A stretch of 9,004 nt of DNA, taken from assembly GCA_028822575.1 (NCBI GenBank), contig JAPKDN010000091.1:1-9004 (forward strand), written 5' to 3'. Shown piece after piece: positions 1-9,004 of this stretch (the stretch's first letter is position 1; every line of letters begins with the position of its first letter). Below the pieces are notes generated by a model. It did not search any database and was not told the DNA's origin. It worked only from the letters and a program-made list of their open reading frames with translations. This DNA comes from Alphaproteobacteria bacterium. GTDB lineage: Bacteria > Pseudomonadota > Alphaproteobacteria > Thalassobaculales > Thalassobaculaceae. The position numbers and the translations under genes are program-made.

Positions 1-678
1 CAACCAGTTAATTATCCTTTTATAACGAATGACTTTGATGCCTTTTTTAAGTATGACTTTGATGTCGTGCTCGAGGTAGCCGGGCATGCAGCGGTGATAG
101 ATCATGCCGAGAAAATCCTACGCGCCAAGATTGACATGATTGTGACCTCGGTCGGCGCCTTCACCGATGACGCGGTCTATCAGGGCTGTATCGAAGCCGC
201 TCGAAGCGCTGGCTCCAGGCTGATCATTCCGTCGGCCGGTATCGGCGCGTTGGACACGCTTTCCGCCGCCGCCGTCGGTGGGCTGACATCGGTCCATATG
301 ATTGTGCGCAAGGATCCCTCCGCCTGGTACGGGACCCATGCCGAGGGTGTCTTCGACCTGCCCGGGATGACCGAGCCGACCGTGATATTCGAGGGCAGCC
401 CACGCGAAGGGGCGGCGCTCTATCCGCAGAACGTGAATATCTCGGCGGCGGTCTCGCTTGCCGGGATGGGACTGGACGATACACGGTTGACGGTCATCGC
501 CGACACCGATATCGACACCCATGTCTGCGAGATCCACGCCGAGGGCGCGTTCGGAAAATTCAGTTTCGTCGAGAACCTCGCGATCGCCGAGAGTAACCGC
601 AAGACCGCTAAGGTCGTCGCCATGGCGGTGATGAAGACCGTCCGCCAGATGGTCAGCCCGGTCGTCATTGGCGCCTAA
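1..678 (+). CDS. Aspartate dehydrogenase-like protein (DUF108 family), 5' end outside the window
   Basis: The frame is open from base 1 to the TAA at 676-678, giving 225 visible residues; the N-terminal Rossmann start lies upstream. Visible motifs fit the L-aspartate dehydrogenase (NadX-like) family: the end of the NAD-binding domain (DVVLEVAGHAAV, then SVGAFTDD at residues 50-57), the domain-linking PSAGIGALD (77-85), and YPQNVNISAA (about 141-150) followed by AEGAFG. Family members convert L-aspartate and NAD(P)+ to iminoaspartate/oxaloacetate and ammonia. Family members I know usually carry an N-x-H-E-I motif before the G-x-FG segment. Here it reads H-V-C-E-I (residues 174-178), so the usual catalytic His position appears to be Cys and the true substrate may differ. 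A GTG at 67 is an internal codon, not a start, because homology continues upstream of it. The gene converges on the next one with only 9 bp between stops. Confidence 0.8.
   Translation, partial: QPVNYPFITNDFDAFFKYDFDVVLEVAGHAAVIDHAEKILRAKIDMIVTSVGAFTDDAVYQGCIEAARSAGSRLIIPSAGIGALDTLSAAAVGGLTSVHMIVRKDPSAWYGTHAEGVFDLPGMTEPTVIFEGSPREGAALYPQNVNISAAVSLAGMGLDDTRLTVIADTDIDTHVCEIHAEGAFGKFSFVENLAIAESNRKTAKVVAMAVMKTVRQMVSPVVIGA
29..64 (+). repeat. 12-bp in-frame direct repeat in AT-rich 5' segment
   Basis: ATGACTTTGATG occurs at 29-40 and again at 53-64. The spacing is 24 bp, exactly eight codons, so it encodes a repeated D-F-D within NDFDAFFKYDFDVV. It lies in the first 60 bases, which contain about 17 G/C (28%), while the sequence becomes strongly GC-rich from about base 65. 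The repeat is seen directly; any origin by duplication is inference. Confidence 0.5.
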
Positions 679-687
679 TGTTCGGAG

Positions 688-1734
688 CTAAACTTTGTTC
701 ACCGGATGTTTTGGCGCCTCGCCGCTTAGTACCCGAACCATGTCGGCTCCGGCGGTGCCGGCGATGGTGCGCAGGCACTCCCGCGTCGAGCCGGCCATAT
801 GCGGTGTCAGGATAAGATTGGGCGCCTCGTAGATCGGGCTTTTCGGATCCGGCGGCTCCCCTTCCAACACATCGAGTGCGGCGCCCCCGAGGCGTCCGTC
901 TATTAACGCTTGGGCCAGCGCTGCTTCGTCGATCAGGCTGCCGCGCGCGCAATTGACGATCATGGCGGTGGATTTCATGCCCGCGATCGTCTCGGCGTTA
1001 ATCATGTGCCGTGTCACCGGGATCGCCGGTGCATGCAGGGAAAGGATATCGGCGCTGCCAAGCACGCCCTCGAACGTCATGGACTCCGCGCCGCGTCGGG
1101 TAATCTCCGCGTCGTCAAGGGTGGGATCATGCGCGATCACACCCATCCCGAAAGCGCTGGCGATCCGGGCGACCCGCTGGCCGATCTGTCCCAGCCCGAT
1201 CAACCCGAGGATCCGACCCTTTAATTCGCCGCCGGTATGTCGCGCGCTGTCCCAGGCTCTGTCCGCCTTGGTTTTGTGCGCGGCGTCGGGGATCTGGCGA
1301 AACAGCGAAAGCATCAGACCAAAGGTGATCTCGGTGACCGCGTCGGCGTTGGCGCCCGGGGTGTTGGTGACCAGAACTCCCCGTTCGGTACAGGCTGCGA
1401 CATCGACTGGATCGACACCGGCGCCGTGCACCGCGATCACCTTCAGGTCCGGCAGGCGATCGAGCAACGATGCTGTGATATAGCCCGAGCGTAGCAGGAG
1501 TGCGCCGGCGCCCTGAAGCTTGCTCGCCCAATGCGCCTCTTCACCGGCCGAGAGCGGCTTGTAAGGCAGGGCGATATTGCGCACCTCGAAGGTATCTCCG
1601 GCGGCGTCGTTAACTGGCGCTTCCAGGATGGGGAGCTCCGCCGTCGCGGCAAGCGCGATCCAAGGTGTTGTGTCTGCGCTCTTGGCATTGGTTCCTAGCG
1701 TTCGAGCCAATTGGGTTGAGCGGATATTATCCAT
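688..1734 (-). CDS. D-isomer-specific 2-hydroxyacid dehydrogenase (PGDH-like)
   Basis: The protein has 348 residues with the two-domain D-2-hydroxyacid dehydrogenase plan. The Rossmann motif G-L-G-Q-I-G is at 180-185, and the Asp at 203 (AHDP) ending strand 2 suggests NAD rather than NADP. The catalytic set is Arg264 (NCARGSLID), Glu293 (LEGEPP) and His312 (TPHMAGS). Upstream, VHGAGVDPVDVAA (102-114) is the usual substrate-loop region. The family reduces 2-oxoacids to D-2-hydroxyacids, or the reverse; the substrate cannot be read from sequence. Relatives include phosphoglycerate, glyoxylate/hydroxypyruvate and (S)-sulfolactate dehydrogenases. The ATG at 1734 was chosen because no better start precedes the homology, although residues 1-25 look like extra N-terminal sequence and no clear Shine-Dalgarno is visible. 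A dyad (1738-1759) ends 3 nt before this ATG. The gene is divergent from the Ldh2-type dehydrogenase and may share its control region. Confidence 0.88.
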   Translation of the reverse strand: MDNIRSTQLARTLGTNAKSADTTPWIALAATAELPILEAPVNDAAGDTFEVRNIALPYKPLSAGEEAHWASKLQGAGALLLRSGYITASLLDRLPDLKVIAVHGAGVDPVDVAACTERGVLVTNTPGANADAVTEITFGLMLSLFRQIPDAAHKTKADRAWDSARHTGGELKGRILGLIGLGQIGQRVARIASAFGMGVIAHDPTLDDAEITRRGAESMTFEGVLGSADILSLHAPAIPVTRHMINAETIAGMKSTAMIVNCARGSLIDEAALAQALIDGRLGGAALDVLEGEPPDPKSPIYEAPNLILTPHMAGSTRECLRTIAGTAGADMVRVLSGEAPKHPVNKV

Positions 1735-1737
1735 ATC

Positions 1738-1759
1738 CCGAGGAATTGGAATGCCTCGG
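1738..1759. promoter_or_regulatory. 22-bp dyad symmetry, candidate operator or RBS-masking hairpin
   Basis: The arms CCGAGG (1738-1743) and CCTCGG (1754-1759) are perfect inverted repeats. Inside them ATT (1745-1747) and AAT (1750-1752) also pair, so 9 of 11 positions are complementary around a GG centre. The dyad ends 3 nt before the ATG of the minus-strand 2-hydroxyacid dehydrogenase, where its ribosome binding site should be. It could be a protein-binding operator, or in the minus-strand transcript a hairpin that hides the ribosome site. The symmetry is seen; the function is inferred. Confidence 0.5.
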
Positions 1760-1762
1760 TCC

Positions 1763-1801
1763 GTCCCGTAAAGTAACGCTAACGAAACTTATTGCCGGGA
1801 C
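1763..1801. promoter_or_regulatory. Second, wider dyad overlapping the Shine-Dalgarno of the Ldh2-type gene
   Basis: GTCCCG (1763-1768) and CGGGAC (1796-1801) form a perfect 6-bp inverted repeat. AAGT (1771-1774) and ACTT (1787-1790) form an inner pair. Between them TAACG is directly repeated (1774-1778 and 1780-1784). The right arm contains GGGA (1797-1800), the only Shine-Dalgarno-like bases before the ATG at 1810. Pairing in RNA would cover it if transcription starts upstream of 1763. No convincing -35/-10 pair was found for either gene in this 75-bp gap. Confidence 0.35.
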
Positions 1802-1809
1802 ACCCCAAA

Positions 1810-2835
1810 ATGCCGACTTCGCCGATGAACCCCGAGAGCCTCACCGCCCTGATCCGTAACTCGCTCGCCGCCGGTGGGTTTTCCGACGTCAATGCTGATA
1901 TCGTCTCGGGTCATTTGGTGGATGCCGAGATGAAGGGTGTCGCGAGCCATGGTGTGAACCGACTAGGTCTTTATCTCGGCGAGGCCAAGCGCGACGTGAT
2001 TGACCCCGCCGCCGACCCGCTGATTACCGAGCCTCGGCCCGGCATGATGCATGTGGATGGCGCGCGTGGCATTGGCATCGTTGCCATGAAGCGAGCGACC
2101 GATGCCGGCATCGCGGCGGCGCGGGAGCTGGGCATGGCCACCGTCGGGATCGTCAAATGCGGCCATACCGGGCGCATGGGCGCCTATGGCGAGCAGGCGG
2201 CGGAGGCGGGGTTCATGGCACTTAGTCTAGGCGGTGGTGGTCGGCAGCTTTGGGGCAACGTGGTGCCGTTCGGCGGCCAAGACCCGATGATGAGCACCAA
2301 TCCTTATACCCTGGCGCTGCCGGGTGGGCAGGGCGATCCGGTGGTCTGTGATTTCGCGATATCGACCTGGCCGGCCGGCAAGGTCGCGGTGGCGCGGGCG
2401 AATGGCGATACGCTGCCGCTGGATGTGGTGGTGGACAAGAATGGCGCCCCCTCCACGGACCCGGAGGCCTTTTATGACGGCGGCGCGTTGTTGCCGGCGG
2501 CGGGCGCCAAAGGGAGCGGCATGGGTATCATCGCCGAGCTGATGGGCGACGCAATGTTGGGCGAGGCGGTGGAGTATAATTGGCTCATGGTGTTGATCCG
2601 GGCCGACGCGTTCCGGCCGATGACGGACTATACCGAGGCGGCCGAGGGCTTTATGGCCGAGGTGCGGGGCTCTTCCCCTGCGCCCGGATTTGATTCCGTG
2701 ATGATGCCCGGAGAACGCGAGACATCGCGCGCGCGCGCGGCGGCCGAGACGGGAATTGTCGTGGGCGATGGTGTTTGGAACGGGATTATCGAGGCCGCGA
2801 ACTCGGTGGGTGTTAAGCCGGAGGACTATGTCTGA
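1810..2835 (+). CDS. Malate/L-lactate dehydrogenase family oxidoreductase (type 2, Ldh2/ComC-like)
   Basis: The protein has 341 residues, a usual length for the Ldh_2 family (type-2 malate/lactate, ureidoglycolate, 2,3-diketogulonate, (R)-sulfolactate and piperideine-2-carboxylate dehydrogenases). These use NAD(P)H in a fold unrelated to Rossmann enzymes. Visible landmarks are the catalytic-region SHGVNR (46-51), VGIVKCGHTGRMGAYGEQA (112-130), VPFGGQDPMMSTNP (152-165), DFAIST-x-PAGKV (181-192), and the GGALLPAAGAKGSGMGI stretch (224-240) with the E-L pair after it. Substrate specificity cannot be assigned. The ATG at 1810 was chosen over an in-frame TTG at 1792 and an ATG at 1825 because GGGA lies 9 nt upstream of it and the protein keeps a normal N-terminus. 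It is divergent from the D-type hydroxyacid dehydrogenase, so two enzymes of opposite typical stereopreference share one control region. A (CG)7 run lies near codon 306-310. Confidence 0.88.
   Translation: MPTSPMNPESLTALIRNSLAAGGFSDVNADIVSGHLVDAEMKGVASHGVNRLGLYLGEAKRDVIDPAADPLITEPRPGMMHVDGARGIGIVAMKRATDAGIAAARELGMATVGIVKCGHTGRMGAYGEQAAEAGFMALSLGGGGRQLWGNVVPFGGQDPMMSTNPYTLALPGGQGDPVVCDFAISTWPAGKVAVARANGDTLPLDVVVDKNGAPSTDPEAFYDGGALLPAAGAKGSGMGIIAELMGDAMLGEAVEYNWLMVLIRADAFRPMTDYTEAAEGFMAEVRGSSPAPGFDSVMMPGERETSRARAAAETGIVVGDGVWNGIIEAANSVGVKPEDYV
2726..2739. repeat. (CG)7 alternating dinucleotide run inside the Ldh2-type gene
   Basis: Fourteen bases of strictly alternating C and G encode the Ser-Arg-Ala-Arg-Ala part of the C-terminal region. 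Such runs can adopt Z-form DNA, and gain or loss of a unit would shift the frame. It may simply reflect GC-rich codon use for Arg and Ala. Confidence 0.6.
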
Positions 2836-3044
2836 GCAGGTTCGCGGGCAAGACGTGGGGAGGTGTGTCATTCGCGTGGATGGCTGAATCCCGCTCACCG
2901 GTACGCCGACGCTTTACCCGGGGTGACCTTGACGTCTCCCGATATTTCAGCGTTTTCGCGCCCTCCACCGCGATTGCCGCTTGGTGATGCCGGAAGGATG
3001 GTTAATTCTTTCGATATTGAATGAAGTGGAGCGCGGAGAAACCG

Positions 3045-4136
3045 ATGAATCATGTAAGCTCTGATTTGGTGCACCGGGCCCCGATCGACGACGCGAGTGC
3101 CTGGACGCCGGATGACGTAAAACGGGACACGGATTGGGATGTAACGCTCGGCGCCGTGGAGGTGGCTGACCTGATTGCTGCATTAGAGGCGACGCACCGT
3201 ACCGGGGTACCGTTGGCGGCGATCAACCGGGATAACTTTCCGTTACCGAACAGCGCTGGGGTAATTAAACGCATCCGAGATGAACTGCGCGCCGGTCGGG
3301 GATTCGCGTTGATGCACGGATTTCCGGTGGAGCTCCAAGAGCGCGAGGATATCGCGCGGATGTATTGGGGTTTCTGCGCGCATCTCGGCATCGGTGTGAC
3401 CCAGAACAGCGACGCCGGGTTGATCCACTATGTGACCGAGGGACGGCTCAGGCCCAGTCAGGGGACCCGCGGCGTGGGGAATCCCGGCAAGGTCTCGCTG
3501 CATGTCGATTTGGCGGATTGCACGACGCTTTTATGTGTTCAACAGGCCGTTGATTCGCCGCATAGCCAATTAGCGAGCTCGACGACGATTCATAACGCCT
3601 TCCTAGAGAGGGCTCCGGAACGACTGGAACGCTTGTATCAGGGCTTTGCCTGGGACCGGCAGAACGAACATGGCGAGACCGAGACGGCGACCACCGGGTA
3701 TCGGGTGCCGGTTTTTAGTCAGCGTGAGGGCGTGGTCTCGTGCCGCTATAACCGGAACTGGATCACCAAGGCGGCCATCCGTGGAGATGGATTTTCCCAT
3801 GACGAAACGGCGCTGCTGGATCTTCTAGATGACTTGGCGCAAGAGCATCGTTTCGGATTTCGGTTTCAGCCTGGCGACGTACAGTTCGTGAACAATTACA
3901 CCGTTCTGCATGGCCGTGCGCCGCATAAGCCGGCGGCGAGCGAGGATGACGTGCGGGTTCTCATGCGGGTCTGGTTCGATATGGAAGACATTCGCCCCTT
4001 CGCCGACGACGCCATCATCCGTTACGGCATCATTCGGCACGGCAAACTTGGTTGGTCGGCGGCGGATCTGATGGCTGGTCTTGATGGCCGCGCTCACCCA
4101 AGGCGGATGGAAGACCAGGCACCGCTGTTGGCATGA
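3045..4136 (+). CDS. TauD/TfdA-family Fe(II)/2-oxoglutarate-dependent dioxygenase
   Basis: This is a 363-residue protein of the clavaminate synthase-like double-stranded beta-helix superfamily. The iron-binding facial triad is visible as His153 and Asp155 (SLHVDLADC) and His289 (NNYTVLHGR), with Arg304/Arg308 (VRVLMRVWF) as candidates for binding the 2-oxoglutarate carboxylate. FALMHGFPV (88-95) is the N-terminal strand typical of the family. Members couple 2-oxoglutarate decarboxylation to hydroxylation, often with release of sulfite, an aldehyde or glyoxylate; the substrate here is unknown. An in-frame ATG at 3021 exists, but 3045 was chosen because GGAG (3035-3038) lies 6 nt before it. The 209 bp upstream (2836-3044) hold no gene and no convincing promoter, so whether it is co-transcribed with the Ldh2-type gene is open. 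It converges on the nitrile hydratase alpha gene, with 32 bp between stop codons. Confidence 0.88.
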   Translation: MNHVSSDLVHRAPIDDASAWTPDDVKRDTDWDVTLGAVEVADLIAALEATHRTGVPLAAINRDNFPLPNSAGVIKRIRDELRAGRGFALMHGFPVELQEREDIARMYWGFCAHLGIGVTQNSDAGLIHYVTEGRLRPSQGTRGVGNPGKVSLHVDLADCTTLLCVQQAVDSPHSQLASSTTIHNAFLERAPERLERLYQGFAWDRQNEHGETETATTGYRVPVFSQREGVVSCRYNRNWITKAAIRGDGFSHDETALLDLLDDLAQEHRFGFRFQPGDVQFVNNYTVLHGRAPHKPAASEDDVRVLMRVWFDMEDIRPFADDAIIRYGIIRHGKLGWSAADLMAGLDGRAHPRRMEDQAPLLA

Positions 4137-4162
4137 GGGCTCATTCGGGCGGTGGAAGCCCT
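4136..4162. terminator. Weak inverted repeat between convergent genes
   Basis: AGGGCT (4136-4141) and AGCCCT (4157-4162) can pair as a 6-bp stem with a 15-nt loop in the 32-bp gap between the dioxygenase and the nitrile hydratase alpha gene. There is no T-tract on either strand, so it is at best a weak bidirectional terminator. It is reported because a convergent junction is where one is expected. Confidence 0.22.
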
Positions 4163-4168
4163 GCTTGA

Positions 4169-4819
4169 CTATCGAACCCCGCCCGACCCAAAGGCCTCTG
4201 CGGTTCCGATCATCGAGTCGCGGCTGACCAGATCCGCCAGTTCCGCCTCACTCATCCCTTCGGTTCCCTGGGGGCGACGGGGGAGGACCAAATACCGGCA
4301 GTCGGCGGTTGAATCGACGACGCGAACCTCCATGCTCTCGGGCAATGCGGTGCCGAATTCCTTCAGTACGGCGCGAGGTTCGCGCACGGCGCGGGAGCGG
4401 TATTCGCGTGATTTGTACCAGAGTGGTGGCATGCCGAGCAGTGGCCGGGGATAACAAGAGCACAGGGTACAAACGACCATGTGATGCAGATCGTTGGTGT
4501 TCTCCAGCGCGATCAGTTTCAACGCCTCGACCTCGAAGCCCATCTCGGCGACGGCGGCGTTGCCGTCCTCTAGCAGGCGTCGGCGAAAGGCACGGTCGGT
4601 CCAGGCGCGGGCCACGATTTTGGCGCCACCCTCGGGAGATTTTTTCTCCCAGGCCTCGATCTGGTCCTGAACCTCGCGGGCGGTAATGACGCCCTTGTCA
4701 ATCAACAGCTCACGGAGAGTGATTTCCAGAAATTCCCAATCCTCGCTCGGTTCCGTGATGTCGGGCTGAAAGGTTGTGTGATCATGGCCGTGGTCGTGGG
4801 TATGGTCATGTGTGCTCAT
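4169..4819 (-). CDS. nthA: Nitrile hydratase-type alpha subunit (cobalt type) / thiocyanate hydrolase gamma-like
   Basis: This 216-residue metal-binding subunit follows the nitrile hydratase alpha family along most of its length: GAKIVARAWTD (65-75), ENTNDLHHMVVCTLCSCYP (106-124), YRSRAVREPRAVL (140-152) and a C-terminal LVSRDSMIG. The claw V-C-T-L-C-S-C places the ligands at Cys117, Cys120 and Cys122; Thr118 is the residue associated with low-spin Co(III) rather than Fe(III) enzymes. Known relatives hydrate nitriles to amides or, as thiocyanate hydrolase, turn thiocyanate into carbonyl sulfide and ammonia. Two features stand out: an N-terminus with seven His in 14 residues (MSTHDHTHDHGHDH) and Arg125 after the claw (CYPRP), where well-studied nitrile hydratases have Trp. 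The ATG at 4819 overlaps the TGA of the upstream beta-like gene by 4 bp, which fixes the start; the frame stays open further upstream, but that stretch does not look like protein of this family. Confidence 0.93.
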   Translation of the reverse strand: MSTHDHTHDHGHDHTTFQPDITEPSEDWEFLEITLRELLIDKGVITAREVQDQIEAWEKKSPEGGAKIVARAWTDRAFRRRLLEDGNAAVAEMGFEVEALKLIALENTNDLHHMVVCTLCSCYPRPLLGMPPLWYKSREYRSRAVREPRAVLKEFGTALPESMEVRVVDSTADCRYLVLPRRPQGTEGMSEAELADLVSRDSMIGTAEAFGSGGVR

Positions 4820-5103
4820 AGCGGTTCCAACCATGTTTCGTAAATATCGGCAGCGACCGTATCGCCCGGGGCATAAGCGCCGTCGCCCGCCCAAGTTTCG
4901 TCCATGGTGAACAATACCTGATAGAGATGGAGCCGCGGCAACCCCGAAAGTCCGTAGGCCAGTCGCTCCGGATTTGGAAAATCGCCGAAATGGCGAATTA
5001 TTTCGCCGGTGCAACCGCGTAGAAACAGCGGAGTGCGCACATGGCCCGGCGGCAGGCCTTGGGAAATGCGAACCTTGTCGCCAATCGCATGGGCCCCGGT
5101 CAT
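4816..5103 (-). CDS. Split nitrile hydratase beta subunit, C-terminal half (SH3-like domain)
   Basis: This 95-residue protein matches only the C-terminal SH3-like barrel of nitrile hydratase beta: AIGDKVRI (6-13), GHVRTPLFLRGCTGEI (20-35), NPERLAYG (44-51), LYQVLFTMDETW (60-71) and a closing ADIYETWLEPL. Arg23 in H-V-R-T-P aligns by motif with the conserved beta Arg (Arg157 in Rhodococcus numbering) that hydrogen-bonds oxidised claw cysteines. In thiocyanate hydrolase this half is a separate subunit (ScnA), and a three-polypeptide toyocamycin nitrile hydratase is also known. The ATG at 5103 was chosen because it overlaps the upstream stop (TGA at 5102-5100) as ATGA, and VRISQG homology begins just after it; the frame is open to 5211 but the extra residues are low-complexity shadow of the neighbour. 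Its own stop overlaps the alpha start in the same way, indicating translational coupling. Confidence 0.88.
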   Translation of the reverse strand: MTGAHAIGDKVRISQGLPPGHVRTPLFLRGCTGEIIRHFGDFPNPERLAYGLSGLPRLHLYQVLFTMDETWAGDGAYAPGDTVAADIYETWLEPL

Positions 5104-5435
5104 GAGGCGACCTTGGCATGTCTGGCCTTGACCTCGGCGAGTTTTACCTCGATCTCGGCCTCGCTCAGCACGCCTTTCTCGATCAGCAACCCTCGCATCG
5201 CCAGAATCCAACGTTCATAATAGGCCGATTCCTTATAAATTAAGGGCTCAAGGCTTTCTATCGTTCGGCGGTTCTCGTCGGTTGCCCAAAACGACCTTGG
5301 CTTAGAGCGGAGCAGCATCATCATCGCGTCTATGCGCCGCTCGCTCAGCGTGGGTTCATGTTCCGAGGTATCGATCGGCCCACCGGGCAGGCCTCCGAGA
5401 TCGCTGATCGCGCGTTCAGTCATGTCGCCATCCAT
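5100..5435 (-). CDS. Split nitrile hydratase beta subunit, N-terminal half
   Basis: This 111-residue protein resembles the helical N-terminal half of nitrile hydratase beta (ScnB-like in thiocyanate hydrolase): SDLGGLPGGP (11-20) corresponds to the family's D-x-GG start, and YKESAYYERWILAMRGLL (67-84) with GVLSEAEIEVKL to the conserved helix-turn-helix that follows. One of Arg56/Arg57 probably corresponds to the second conserved active-site beta Arg (Arg52 in Rhodococcus numbering). It is less likely to be a nitrile hydratase activator, which shares part of this fold, because the D-x-GG segment and the order N-half, C-half, alpha match the enzyme. The ATG at 5435 was preferred. ATG 5423 is also possible, with GGA 7 nt upstream, and a TTG at 5459 extends the frame without a ribosome site. 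It is the first gene of the operon. Confidence 0.8.
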   Translation of the reverse strand: MDGDMTERAISDLGGLPGGPIDTSEHEPTLSERRIDAMMMLLRSKPRSFWATDENRRTIESLEPLIYKESAYYERWILAMRGLLIEKGVLSEAEIEVKLAEVKARHAKVAS

Positions 5436-5515
5436 TTGTTCTTGGGTCAGTTTAACCAATCGCTGGGGTGGACGGAAAGGAAAACTCCGAGGGGCGGTGT
5501 AACCACGCGATTTCT

Positions 5516-5543
5516 ATTTGATCCATCGCCCTCCCGTTCTCAA
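5516..5543 (-). promoter_or_regulatory. Candidate sigma-70-type promoter for the split hydratase operon
   Basis: On the minus strand TTGAGA (5543-5538, 5 of 6 matches to the -35 consensus) is followed after 16 bp by TCAAAT (5521-5516, 4 of 6 matches to -10). Transcription would start near 5509, giving a leader of about 75 nt before the ATG at 5435. The element is read by eye in a GC-rich background and is only a candidate. Confidence 0.3.
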
Positions 5544-5587
5544 GGGCCTCATGGAAAGAAACCGACACCCCCCGGCTGGTTTGCGCC

Positions 5588-5593
5588 TATAGT
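5588..5593 (+). promoter_or_regulatory. Possible -10 element upstream of the MFS gene
   Basis: TATAGT matches five of six positions of the -10 consensus in the 214-bp divergent gap, 56 bp before the chosen MFS start. The best upstream -35-like bases are poor (CCGACA at 5562-5567, with a 20-bp spacer). Support is weak. Confidence 0.2.
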
Positions 5594-5649
5594 CCTAGTT
5601 TCAAGGAAAGGCCCTCGCGCTTGGTGGCCTGCCAGCGGCATTGGCGTCA

Positions 5650-7194
5650 ATGGTTGATCGTAAACCAGCTCGTGAATTTAACGCGGAGACGGATCCTATA
5701 GGGATGCGTCACTGGTTGATCCTGGCGACGGTTCAGATCACGACGCTGACATTCGGCATGACCATCACTGGCACCAATGTTGTGCTCCCCCAGCTCAAGG
5801 GGGCTATGTCGGCGACGCCGGATCAAATCGCCTGGGTGGTGACCTTCAACCTGGTTGGCACCGCGATCGCGACGCCCTTGACCGGATGGCTCGCTGGCAC
5901 CTTTGGGTGGCGGTATCTGTTGTTCGGTAGTCTTTCCGGGTTCACGATCTTCACGGCGCTTTGCGGAATGGCAGATTCGTTGGAGTCGCTGGTGTTGTTC
6001 AGGGTTGGGCAGGGGGCGTTCGGGGCACCGTTGATGCCGCTTGGCCAAGGGATGATTCTGGCGACTTTCCCGCGTCGATTGCACCCGATGGCGCTGATGG
6101 TTTGGGGAATCGGGGGGGTGATTGGGCCGGTGATGGGGCCGATCATGGGCGGCTTTGTCGCCGAGGCGCTGAATTGGCGTTGGGTGTTTTTTATGATTGT
6201 GCCGCTGGGTCTGCTCAGCATTTTCATCGCCGCGATCTCGGTTGGTGATCAGGGCAGGAGCGAGGCCAAGAAGTTTGACGCCACAGGTTTCGTCGCCCTC
6301 GCGCTCGCTATCGGCGCTACACAGCTGATGCTCGATCGGGGCTCGCGCCTCGATTGGTTCGAGTCTTGGGAGGTTATCCTCGAGGCTTGTGTCGCGTTTG
6401 CTGGGTTTTATGTTTTCGTTGTCCACACCTTTACCACCGAGAATCCATTCCTTAACCCGCGTCTGTTCCTGGATCGCAATTTCGCCCTGGGATGTCTCAC
6501 CGCGTTTGCCATGGGGTGGATGAGCTACACACCCATCGTGTTGTTCCCGCCATTGTTGCAGGAGTTGCGGGGCTATCCAGACTCCGTCGTTGGCACTCTC
6601 ATCGCGGCGCGGGGGTTTGGCAATTGGTTGAGTTTCCTGATCGTCGTCCCTTTCACCCGCAAGGCGCCGAGATTGGCGCTGGCGGTGGGGCTGGCCTGTC
6701 AGGCCTTGGCCGGATGGCAGATGGGAGCGCTGGACATCAATTTGACGGAGAGCGATGTATTTTGGACCAACACGCTTCAAGGCTTTGGCTTTGGTCTCGC
6801 CTATACGCCGATGGCCACCTTGGCGTTCTCTACCTTGTCATCAAAGCTGATGGTCGAGGGATCGGCGGTGTTTAATCTACTGCGCCACTATGGCAGTAGT
6901 GTTTTTATCTCCATTAGCATCATGGTTCTGGTTCAAAGTACGGCCTGGAACTACTCTGATATGACGACCTTGATGACCCCGTTCAATGAATTGCTTCGTT
7001 TCCCGGCGGTCAGCGGCGACTGGTCGCTGGATAGCCTATCCGGGCTTTTGGCGTTGAGCAGCGAGATCAAGCGTCAGGCGCAAATGATCGGCTATATCAA
7101 TGCGTTCCAGCTATTCGCCATCGCGGCCGCCTTCGCGATCCCAATGAGCTTCCTGTTCGCGGATCCGAACGGCCCGGCGGCGGTGAAGCGGTGA
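5650..7194 (+). CDS. DHA2-family (EmrB/QacA-like) MFS transporter
   Basis: This 514-residue inner-membrane protein has many hydrophobic segments spread over two halves, the size and pattern of the 14-TM DHA2 drug:H+ antiporter family. It shows the first helix TTLTFGMTITGTNVVLPQL (31-49), the motif A region GWLAGTFGWRYLLFG (79-93), the RVGQGAFGAPLMPLGQG segment (118-134), and antiporter motif C GIGGVIGPVMGPIMGG (153-168). The C-half signature GFGLAYTPMATLAF is at 380-393, followed by GSAVFNLLRHYGSSV (404-418). Motif C suggests proton-coupled export, although some DHA2 relatives import. The ATG at 5650 was taken over a TTG at 5641; ATG 5704 (Met19), just before the first hydrophobic helix, is a possible alternative. 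It is divergent from the hydratase operon and runs in the same direction as the flavoprotein that follows after 63 bp, so a role in handling substrate or product of either is plausible but unproven. Confidence 0.9.
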   Translation: MVDRKPAREFNAETDPIGMRHWLILATVQITTLTFGMTITGTNVVLPQLKGAMSATPDQIAWVVTFNLVGTAIATPLTGWLAGTFGWRYLLFGSLSGFTIFTALCGMADSLESLVLFRVGQGAFGAPLMPLGQGMILATFPRRLHPMALMVWGIGGVIGPVMGPIMGGFVAEALNWRWVFFMIVPLGLLSIFIAAISVGDQGRSEAKKFDATGFVALALAIGATQLMLDRGSRLDWFESWEVILEACVAFAGFYVFVVHTFTTENPFLNPRLFLDRNFALGCLTAFAMGWMSYTPIVLFPPLLQELRGYPDSVVGTLIAARGFGNWLSFLIVVPFTRKAPRLALAVGLACQALAGWQMGALDINLTESDVFWTNTLQGFGFGLAYTPMATLAFSTLSSKLMVEGSAVFNLLRHYGSSVFISISIMVLVQSTAWNYSDMTTLMTPFNELLRFPAVSGDWSLDSLSGLLALSSEIKRQAQMIGYINAFQLFAIAAAFAIPMSFLFADPNGPAAVKR

Positions 7195-7200
7195 GGGGCG

Positions 7201-7231
7201 TTGACATAACGCGCGCGCTCCGCCGCAATAC
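7201..7231 (+). promoter_or_regulatory. Candidate promoter for the flavoprotein gene
   Basis: A perfect -35 hexamer TTGACA (7201-7206) begins 6 bp after the MFS stop codon. The best -10-like bases are GCAATA or CAATAC (7225-7231) at an 18-19 bp spacing, which is weak. If real, the flavoprotein can be transcribed independently of the transporter. Confidence 0.4.
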
Positions 7232-7257
7232 CCTCTCGCCACCAGGGAGGGCGCCCG

Positions 7258-8427
7258 ATGGATCAGCTTAACCCCACCCACCTGCTGTCACGGGCCCGCG
7301 CGCTTGGGCCGGAGCTTGACGCGGCGGCGGTGGAGATCGAGCGGACCAAGCGGATGCCGGCGGACCTGCTGGCCAAGATCCACGAGGCGCGGTTGGGCCG
7401 GATGTTCCTACCGAAAATTTACGGTGGTGACGAGGTCGATCCGTGTACTTACCTTGATGCGCTCGAGGCGGTCTCGCGCCATGACGCCTCGGTCGGTTGG
7501 AATCTATTCGTTGCCAATAGTTCGGCGCTGATCACGCCGTTTCTAGAGCCGGAGACCGCGCGAACAATCTATGCCGAGCCGCATGCCTGGATGTCCTGGG
7601 GGCCGCCGGACGCGCAAAAGGCGAAAGCCGTGGATGGGGGCTATATCGTTAACGGCACTTGGGGGTTTTCCAGTGGCTGCCGACAGGCGAATTGGATGGG
7701 CGCGCATTGCATGGTTGAGGAGAAGGATGGCTCGGTCCGGCTCAACGCCGCCGGGCGTCCGTCGATCACCAGTTTCCTGTTTCCAGCCACACAAGCGACC
7801 TTGCACGACACTTGGGACACGATCGGTCTACGTGGCACCGCCTCGGACAGCTATACGGTCGACAAGGTCTTCGTGCCAGATGCTTTCACCGGGAGCCGCG
7901 AGGAGCCGAATAATCGCCGGGTTCCGGGACCGCTTTACTGGTTCACCCAGCAGGGGCTTTACGCGGTTGGCGTGGCGGCGGTGGCGCTTGGGACGGCGGG
8001 CGCGATGTTGTCGGCCTTCATGGATTTGGCGACGCAGAAGTCGCCGCGCGGCCAGGCTCGGCTCGCCGATCGTGACACGACGCGGGCGTTGGTGGCCTTA
8101 TCGGAGGCGCGGTTGGGCTCCGCACGATCGTATCTGGTTGATGTGCTTTCTGGCTACTCCGCCGCCGCTGAGGATACTGGCGCCATGGGGGTCGAGGACC
8201 GCGCCAAGGTGCGTCTGGCAACGACGAATGCCATCATTGGCGCCATCGATGTTGCCGATCGAATTCACAAGGCGGCGGGCGTGTCGGCGATCTTCGTCGG
8301 CAAAAACCCGTTCGAACGGCGGTGGCGCGATATCCATACCCTCAGCCAGCAGATCCAGGCGCGCGATGCTCATTTCGAGGTCGTTGGACAGGTTATGCTG
8401 GGCGATCCGCCGGCGGTTTTCTTATAG
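7258..8427 (+). CDS. Acyl-CoA dehydrogenase-fold flavoprotein, probable two-component (class D) monooxygenase
   Basis: This 389-residue protein has the three-part acyl-CoA dehydrogenase fold: an N-terminal helical domain with LPKIYGGDEV (51-60) and SRHDASVGWN (73-82), a middle beta domain with GTWGFSSGCRQANWMG (133-148) and WDTIGLRGTASDSY (186-199), and a C-terminal helical domain ending RRWRDIHTLSQQIQARDAHFE (354-374). The G-x-W-x-F-x-SG pattern, VG-x-N near residue 80 and the RD-x-H C-terminus are typical of HsaA/DszC/hydroxyphenylacetate hydroxylase relatives (Acyl-CoA_dh_2). These take reduced FMN or FAD from a partner reductase and hydroxylate or oxidise an organic substrate. I see no acyl-CoA dehydrogenase catalytic Glu motif, but cannot align it. 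No flavin reductase gene lies in the window. GGGAGG (7245-7250) sits 7 nt before the ATG, a strong ribosome site that fixes the start. Confidence 0.85.
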   Translation: MDQLNPTHLLSRARALGPELDAAAVEIERTKRMPADLLAKIHEARLGRMFLPKIYGGDEVDPCTYLDALEAVSRHDASVGWNLFVANSSALITPFLEPETARTIYAEPHAWMSWGPPDAQKAKAVDGGYIVNGTWGFSSGCRQANWMGAHCMVEEKDGSVRLNAAGRPSITSFLFPATQATLHDTWDTIGLRGTASDSYTVDKVFVPDAFTGSREEPNNRRVPGPLYWFTQQGLYAVGVAAVALGTAGAMLSAFMDLATQKSPRGQARLADRDTTRALVALSEARLGSARSYLVDVLSGYSAAAEDTGAMGVEDRAKVRLATTNAIIGAIDVADRIHKAAGVSAIFVGKNPFERRWRDIHTLSQQIQARDAHFEVVGQVMLGDPPAVFL

Positions 8428-8444
8428 AGCCGTGGCCTCTTGCC

Positions 8445-8474
8445 GTCGGGCCAGCTAAAGCTGGTGCTATTGCT
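8445..8474. repeat. Hairpin repeat, copy 1
   Basis: CCAGC (8451-8455) and GCTGG (8460-8464) form a 5-bp stem around TAAA. The 30-bp unit starting GTCGGGCCAGC aligns without gaps to copy 2 at 8637-8666 with 22 of 30 identities, and most differences are transitions. It begins 18 bp after the flavoprotein stop. This looks like a diverged extragenic palindromic element. Confidence 0.45.
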
Positions 8475-8476
8475 CT

Positions 8477-8491
8477 GGCGTTCGAAACGCC
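8477..8491. terminator. Hairpin GGCGTT-CGA-AACGCC after the flavoprotein gene
   Basis: A perfect 6-bp stem with a 3-nt loop lies 50 bp after the stop codon at 8427 and directly follows repeat copy 1. No T-tract follows, so it is at best an imperfect intrinsic terminator; together with the CCAGC hairpin it forms a tandem stem-loop that could also stabilise the mRNA 3' end. Confidence 0.25.
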
Positions 8492-8636
8492 GCATCGGCT
8501 CAATCGAAACAGCTGGTATCTTGCCGGTAACCACGTCGGGTTTAGCCCCTGTTTTCTTGGGAGCGACGGGTTGACTTGGTCTGGTCAGGTCGAACCAATT
8601 CGGTTGACGGTTTTGAGGCCTAGACAACAGTCCATC

Positions 8637-8666
8637 GTCAAGCCAGCGAAGGCTGGGGCCACTTCT
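8637..8666. repeat. Hairpin repeat, copy 2
   Basis: CCAGC (8643-8647) and GCTGG (8652-8656) flank a GAAG loop inside a unit starting GTCAAGCCAGC, matching copy 1 at 22 of 30 positions. It too is followed by a second inverted repeat (GCGTC 8667-8671 and GACGC 8683-8687, 11-nt loop), so the repeated unit may be about 50 bp. The CCAGCGAAGGCTGG core resembles dispersed intergenic palindromes I associate with alphaproteobacteria, but this needs a genome-wide count. Confidence 0.5.
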
Positions 8667-8879
8667 GCGTCTGTACCGACGTGACGCTCGCTGGGCGGGC
8701 GCGGGCGTCCTTCAATCTTCGAGCCGCCGAAGGTGATGCAATGGCCAACAGCTTTGACCCATGCGACGGAATGGTTGATCCAGGCGCATTCGTCACCAAC
8801 TATACCCGCAGCTCGTGCATCAGCAGCCTAGCGCCCAACCCGGCCACGCGGCGCGCAATTTTGCCAATGGGAGAGATCC

Positions 8880-9004
8880 ATGCCCGATACCCAGGACATT
8901 GATTACGACGCCAGACGGGCCGCGCTGGTTGAGAAGTTTGCGCCGTCCGCCGCGCCGGGGGAATCAAGCGCTGTAGGTACCGGCGGGGTGGATCATCTGG
9001 CGCT
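8880..9004 (+). CDS. N-terminus of a probable VOC-family (glyoxalase/dioxygenase fold) protein, cut by window end
   Basis: An ATG at 8880 with GGAG (8870-8873) 6 nt upstream opens a frame of 41 complete codons that runs off the window. The visible protein begins MPDTQDIDYDARRAALVEKF and reaches GGVDHLA-(L) at residues 35-42. The G-V-D-H-L-A-L pattern is how many vicinal oxygen chelate domains start, the His being the first metal ligand of the beta-alpha-beta-beta-beta unit. The 34 residues before it would be an N-terminal extension. Only this motif supports the family call. It runs in the same direction as the flavoprotein, 452 bp away with hairpins between, so co-transcription is doubtful. 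Confidence 0.5.
   Translation, partial: MPDTQDIDYDARRAALVEKFAPSAAPGESSAVGTGGVDHLA

Follow-up and report, generated by a model that had tools for sequence, protein, structure and literature searches.

Within a 9,004-nucleotide stretch of an alphaproteobacterial genome (family Thalassobaculaceae; GenBank assembly GCA_028822575.1, contig JAPKDN010000091.1, positions 1 to 9,004; hereafter the window), three small genes on the minus strand encode a nitrile hydratase-family enzyme whose beta subunit is divided between two genes, betaN and betaC, placed ahead of the alpha subunit gene. Such three-chain enzymes form a large and common class in Alphaproteobacteria rather than a rarity. As far as sequence comparison can tell, the window enzyme groups on the same side of the family as thiocyanate hydrolase, without being either a demonstrated enzyme of that type or an ordinary nitrile hydratase. 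A new observation is a division in the distribution of TIGR03889, the nitrile hydratase accessory protein (activator) model, which scored over its cut-off of 46 in 23 of the 23 scanned genomes of relatives in which a one-gene-beta enzyme was seen, and in none of the 31 with split operons only. On balance, we consider it probable that the window encodes a three-chain enzyme with a cobalt claw, acting on a small polar or anionic nitrile, which needs no separate activator and uses betaN as its cobalt-loading chaperone.

The operon and its divided beta subunit

The genes, their junctions and the alpha N-terminus are given below; clade counts refer to the 13 rows of the window's clade (the window, L001-L011 and L035).

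5100 to 5435, minus strand: betaN subunit gene (NHase_beta_N), 111 amino acids (aa), Pfam match at 9.3e-19, alternative start at 5423
4816 to 5103, minus strand: betaC subunit gene (NHase_beta_C), 95 aa, Pfam match at 2.2e-15
4169 to 4819, minus strand: alpha subunit gene (NHase_alpha), 216 aa, Pfam match at 2.1e-80
5100 to 5103, minus strand: ATGA overlap of betaN and betaC, 4 base pairs (bp), available in 12 of 13 clade members
4816 to 4819, minus strand: ATGA overlap of betaC and alpha, 4 bp, available in 13 of 13 clade members
4778 to 4810, minus strand: His-rich alpha N-terminus, HDHTHDHGHDH

On the minus strand the order is betaN, then betaC, then alpha. The coordinates, the chain lengths, both ATGA overlaps and the C-T-L-C-S-C claw of alpha that an initial annotation had reported were all reproduced. 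The start of betaN may lie at the ATG at 5423 instead of 5435, because in four relatives (L001, L004, L006 and L008) the open frame has no start codon ahead of the equivalent methionine. The alpha chain carries a CxLCSC claw within its NHase_alpha domain and is accompanied by NHase_beta_N and NHase_beta_C partners, as in the nitrile hydratase superfamily, and the fold agrees with solved members of that superfamily. The two halves cover complementary stretches of a single nitrile hydratase beta model (positions 4-101 and 138-225 of 226), and betaN plus betaC therefore correspond to one beta subunit without its linker. The initial annotation had called the chains short, which holds against the Thiobacillus thiocyanate hydrolase but not against nitrile hydratases: the 216-aa alpha compares with 203-226 aa in the solved alpha chains listed (apart from one 290-aa construct), and the 206 aa of betaN and betaC together (111 + 95) with 206-233 aa in whole beta chains. 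The coding overlaps could plausibly favour 1:1:1 production of the subunits. As a separate observation, alpha (4172-4819) also matches NHLP leader-peptide models (TIGR03793, 71.1 bits, cut-off 50.9); nitrile hydratase alpha subunits have a known kinship with leader peptides of ribosomally synthesised and post-translationally modified peptides (RiPPs).

A sequencing frameshift, revealed by halves joined in close relatives, had been named as what would undo this picture. All 13 clade members have the beta subunit split and none joins the halves, so the split stands. Overlaps at both junctions are available in 12 of the 13 (the script chose the in-frame start closest to a 4-bp overlap, and the start in L035 is a GTG); L008, with a 1-bp gap between betaN and betaC, is the one member without this option there. 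Identity in betaC is 66-87% along its whole length in L001-L008, and the betaN-betaC-alpha arrangement recurs in 86 of the 149 operons surveyed below. That a one-gene beta occurs in 55 of these 149 operons is what could be said for a broken gene; the relatives nevertheless refute frameshift and assembly error, and we give virtually no credence to either of these, or to gene decay, as the origin of the split.

The three-chain class, its pocket residues and its placement

Of 385 sampled genomes belonging to the class of G005, 140 had an alpha subunit of this family (E ≤ 1e-40). Architectures were compared across 149 operons, the window's included and identical alphas counted once, among them a set of 30 loci, the 30 best of the family search and 80 further places hand-picked from its list. 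Seven alphas (L066, L114, L117, L118, L121, L135 and L139), all with YPR after the claw, were left out for having no adjacent betaN and betaC over the thresholds. In this sample, which leans to the query's relatives, the gene order is not unusual, with 86 betaN-betaC-alpha operons beside 54 alpha-beta and one beta-alpha operon with a one-gene beta, and eight alpha-first operons with a split beta.

The residue three positions after the claw (claw+3) was R in 74, K in five and V in seven of the 86 betaN-betaC-alpha operons (R/K 79/86), versus W in 57, F in three and H in three of the 63 others (R/K 0/63). Likewise, a basic residue directly followed the conserved beta arginine in 78/86 versus 1/63. 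A smaller earlier sample of 75 operons had given R/K at claw+3 in 51/51 versus 0/24, the V exceptions surfacing only in the larger one. Since the eight alpha-first operons with a split beta retain W at this position, beta splitting alone does not bring R. The corresponding residues in the window are:

4454 to 4471, minus strand: metal-binding claw C117-T-L-C-S-C122 of alpha
4445 to 4447, minus strand: alpha R125, equivalent to gammaR136 of thiocyanate hydrolase and W116 of Pseudonocardia thermophila nitrile hydratase
5271 to 5273, minus strand: betaN N55, in the column of thiocyanate hydrolase betaR90
5265 to 5270, minus strand: betaN R56 (aligned with betaR91) and R57 (the second basic residue, frequent in the class)
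5035 to 5037, minus strand: betaC R23 in GHVRTP, aligned with GHTRMP of nitrile hydratase beta

The threonine of the CTLCSC claw presumably marks the cobalt type; we take R56 of betaN to be the claw-contacting arginine of nitrile hydratases, and R23 of betaC to be the second such arginine, R157 in nitrile hydratase beta. Position claw+3 corresponds to R136 in the gamma chain of thiocyanate hydrolase (chain letters checked against PDB 2dd4) and to alphaW116 of the P. thermophila enzyme. Reciprocal swaps appear in the titles of two PDB entries, 3vyg (thiocyanate hydrolase R136W) and 3vyh (nitrile hydratase alphaW116R), so this position has already been tested by others. The pocket arginines betaR90 and gammaR136 are reported in a 2013 paper to control thiocyanate selectivity. 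The betaR90 column contains no R in the 86 split operons (L 48, N 15, M 6, S 6, F 3, H 3, T 2, Q 2, G 1). Judged by these alignments, the class has one of the two selectivity arginines of thiocyanate hydrolase without the other. The portions of the nitrile hydratase literature covered by our search hold no description of such a half-set of selectivity residues or of an apparent activator-free class.

Phylogenetic placement agrees with the residue pattern. A 79-row tree of alpha placed the split class and thiocyanate hydrolase together on one side of a branch supported at 100/99. The same branch was recovered after removal of the two trait columns from joined three-chain alignments, at 98 with a quick method on 151 rows and at 100/98 with a careful method on 66 rows. 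Because the class is one branch, its shared traits represent one history and not many independent ones. Within the alpha tree thiocyanate hydrolase pairs weakly (70/80) with L093 and not with the window's clade, while in both joined trees it attaches basally on a very long branch (1.58-1.59), and a branch supported at 86/71 in the 66-row tree separates it from the remaining split rows. The trees are unrooted, and the characterised enzymes placed in them are thiocyanate hydrolase and two nitrile hydratases; the window's chains fall into the clade of none of these. Together with the genes and the 13 split clade members, this bears out the initial annotation's description of a beta split in two, in the order of thiocyanate hydrolase, on a distinct branch.

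A true thiocyanate hydrolase, releasing carbonyl sulfide and ammonia from thiocyanate, would share much with the window enzyme. The Thiobacillus thioparus enzyme (PDB 2dd4) is likewise built of betaN (scnB), betaC (scnA) and alpha (scnC) chains, its genes presumably arranged in that order; it has the claw CTLCSCYPR, which supplies the counterpart of R125, as well as a His-rich N-terminus, and it lies on the same side of the main branch. An excerpt of PMC7193024 writes its order as alpha, beta, gamma, activator. Unlike it, the window enzyme has N55 in the betaR90 column and lacks the N-terminal extensions of betaN and betaC (~37 and ~32 residues). Neither the window proteins scanned nor 31 relatives gave a TIGR03889 match over the cut-off, a model that P15K, the activator dedicated to thiocyanate hydrolase, may or may not fit. 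Moreover, alpha scores 192.8 bits against TIGR03887 (thiocyanate hydrolase gamma), under the cut-off of 291.45; the authentic enzyme sits on its long basal branch; and neither carbonyl sulfide hydrolase-type nor sulfur-oxidation genes are among the annotated neighbours (part of the neighbours are annotated). Given the basal position and N55, the window enzyme is therefore no demonstrated thiocyanate hydrolase, and we regard this identity as improbable.

A stronger contender, though one that we consider unlikely, is a nitrile hydratase of the ordinary kind that acts on neutral organic nitriles and whose beta gene has merely been split. In its favour, nitrile hydratases are the solved structures that match best, whether compared by sequence or by model, and alpha passes TIGR01323 (nitrile hydratase alpha; 257.8 bits, cut-off 249.85). 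The statement that alpha reads like a nitrile hydratase holds for this family score, but the tree and the claw+3 residue both point to the thiocyanate hydrolase side. Two-gene cobalt nitrile hydratases (P. thermophila 1ire/4ob3, Pseudomonas putida 3qxe) have an undivided beta and W after the claw, where the window has R and not W, F or H; a supported branch separates the window from the one-gene-beta enzymes; the retention of W in the alpha-first split operons argues against splitting as the source of R; and the relatives of the class that were scanned gave no activator model match. Another member of the family, the toyocamycin nitrile hydratase ToyJKL, also has three subunits.

The activator question and a proposed mechanism

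Matches to TIGR03889 below the cut-off in the 31 split-only genomes all fall in these genomes' own betaN genes, and none of the window proteins scanned exceeds the cut-off. Relatives with a split beta thus seem to be without the separate helper protein of two-chain enzymes. Several details define these counts. In G456 betaN and betaC lie ~2.7 kb away from alpha; G001 has as its second alpha a fragment where a contig ends; G007 has a second alpha with YPR behind its claw and an adjoining betaC, the contig stopping before betaN; in G006 the second alpha likewise reads YPR there, and its betaN match is broken over two frames; and the second PF21006 match of G495 falls inside its own alpha. A His-rich alpha N-terminus was rejected as a mark of the activator-free state, as alpha-first one-gene-beta enzymes also have one (median of 6 histidines in a 40-aa stretch, versus 7).

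Excerpts of PMC7193024 describe activators as present in almost all nitrile hydratase clusters and required for full activity. Six gene orders are given there, and betaN-betaC-alpha lacking an activator is not among them. A thiocyanate hydrolase activator is mentioned in the portion of PMC3511329 covered, and passages of PMC4709657 state that activators are similar to the beta subunit and may bind alpha at the same place. This resemblance and the absence of model matches lead to our proposal that free betaN does both jobs. The window betaN is homologous to the activators P14K and NhlE (TIGR03889) but scores only 17.8 bits, far under the cut-off; it also differs from them in having the beta arginine and in being a structural chain. 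Natural fusions of betaN to alpha through a His-rich stretch (P0155, P0158, P0173, P0182, P0184, P0191, P0203; loci L118, L121 and L139) are in keeping with such a double role, without proving it; no betaC was seen next to the three loci. A related arrangement is described in the excerpts of PMC2603476 and PMC7193024 for the Monosiga brevicollis fusion nitrile hydratase, for which no activator was found: beta precedes alpha with a His-rich stretch between them, as in the window, but in one fused chain. It might descend from the three-chain class.

G550 weighs against our activator-free reading: it has a stand-alone betaN-like protein of ~97 aa (25.4 bits to PF21006, no TIGR03889 match), which could be an activator missed by the model. 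Structure comparison left betaN tied between thiocyanate hydrolase and nitrile hydratase and put alpha somewhat closer to nitrile hydratase, which, if taken alone, would speak against the placement above. The G550 gene (L188, 1059-1319, contig C2) lies away from the genome's single split operon and adjoins isochorismatase-like and cupin-like frames (named by eye). In three further genomes betaC is outnumbered by alpha (one versus two in G638, one versus three in G433 and G549), which may reflect an enzyme without betaC, a shared betaC or incomplete assemblies.

In nitrile hydratases, water is added to a CN carbon activated at a low-spin metal, whose ligands are two backbone nitrogens and three cysteines, of which two are oxidised. 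On our proposal, alpha, betaN and betaC would form one enzyme of this family, its cobalt centre bound by alpha through the CTLCSC claw. The two beta chains would together act as one beta, each contributing an arginine (R56 and R23) that keeps the oxidised claw in place. Positive charge added near the pocket by R125, and perhaps by R57, would favour small polar or anionic nitriles. The sequence thus suggests that the substrate is probably a small polar or anionic nitrile whose CN group receives the water; cyano-acids would be a guess. For cobalt loading, free betaN, as the activator homologue, would first form a complex with alpha, within which cobalt would be inserted and the cysteines oxidised, and betaC would then complete the enzyme. 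Only tentatively do we extend this to the class as a whole: it is possible, if rather doubtful, that a widespread class dispensed with the activator by splitting beta, betaN becoming both a structural subunit and a self-subunit-swapping cobalt chaperone, with an R-lined pocket for anionic nitriles and thiocyanate hydrolase as one offshoot.

Genomic surroundings and significance

One further gene adjoins the operon directly in its conserved setting:

5641 to 7194, plus strand: EmrB-like major facilitator superfamily (MFS) transporter, divergent from the operon

Such a transporter adjoins the operon divergently in 8/8 of the loci L001-L008, Ldh_2 lies next to the operon in 6/8, and a 2-hydroxyacid dehydrogenase, TauD or an acyl-CoA dehydrogenase-like flavoprotein lies nearby in some; the neighbours of L009-L011 differ. 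Amidase and cyanase domains are, like carbonyl sulfide hydrolase-type ones, absent from the part of the neighbours that is annotated. Deducing the substrate from the neighbourhood was abandoned, as no annotated neighbour points to one. Elsewhere in the window (691-2835), a D-2-hydroxyacid dehydrogenase and an Ldh_2-family dehydrogenase form a divergent pair; it resembles the sulfolactate dehydrogenases SlcC/ComC, but scores far under the cut-off of the sulfolactate model (141.8, cut-off 500). In L009 (6620-11675, a Rhizobiales relative), DUF4387, AtuA-like and DRL-type genes come after the operon, and behind them genes clustering with the SDR and enolase-superfamily genes of L005-L008.

A second enzyme set was present in 8/11 of the genomes behind L001-L011 (G002, G003 and G006-G011; loci L016, L017, L019, L020, L021, L028, L185 and L186). 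In six genomes it is arranged as betaN-betaC-alpha, with an alpha 53-57% identical to the window's; in G006 and G007 it is only partly visible. In the SAR116 genome G006 (L185, 1302-1587, contig C61), its betaN matches in two overlapping frames (70 and 55 aa), which may be a frameshift or decay.

Alphaproteobacteria supply the closest records in the species-genome collection, two of them from the SAR116 cluster, and the source bacterium is probably marine; our literature search returned nothing linking nitrile hydratase with SAR116. The class bears on nitrile use by marine bacteria. It also supplies many natural enzymes with one thiocyanate hydrolase selectivity arginine and without the other. 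Cobalt-loading helpers are needed for full nitrile hydratase activity and the way they work is debated; a class without matches to the helper model and with a free subunit homologous to the helper makes self-subunit-swapping directly testable on three small genes.
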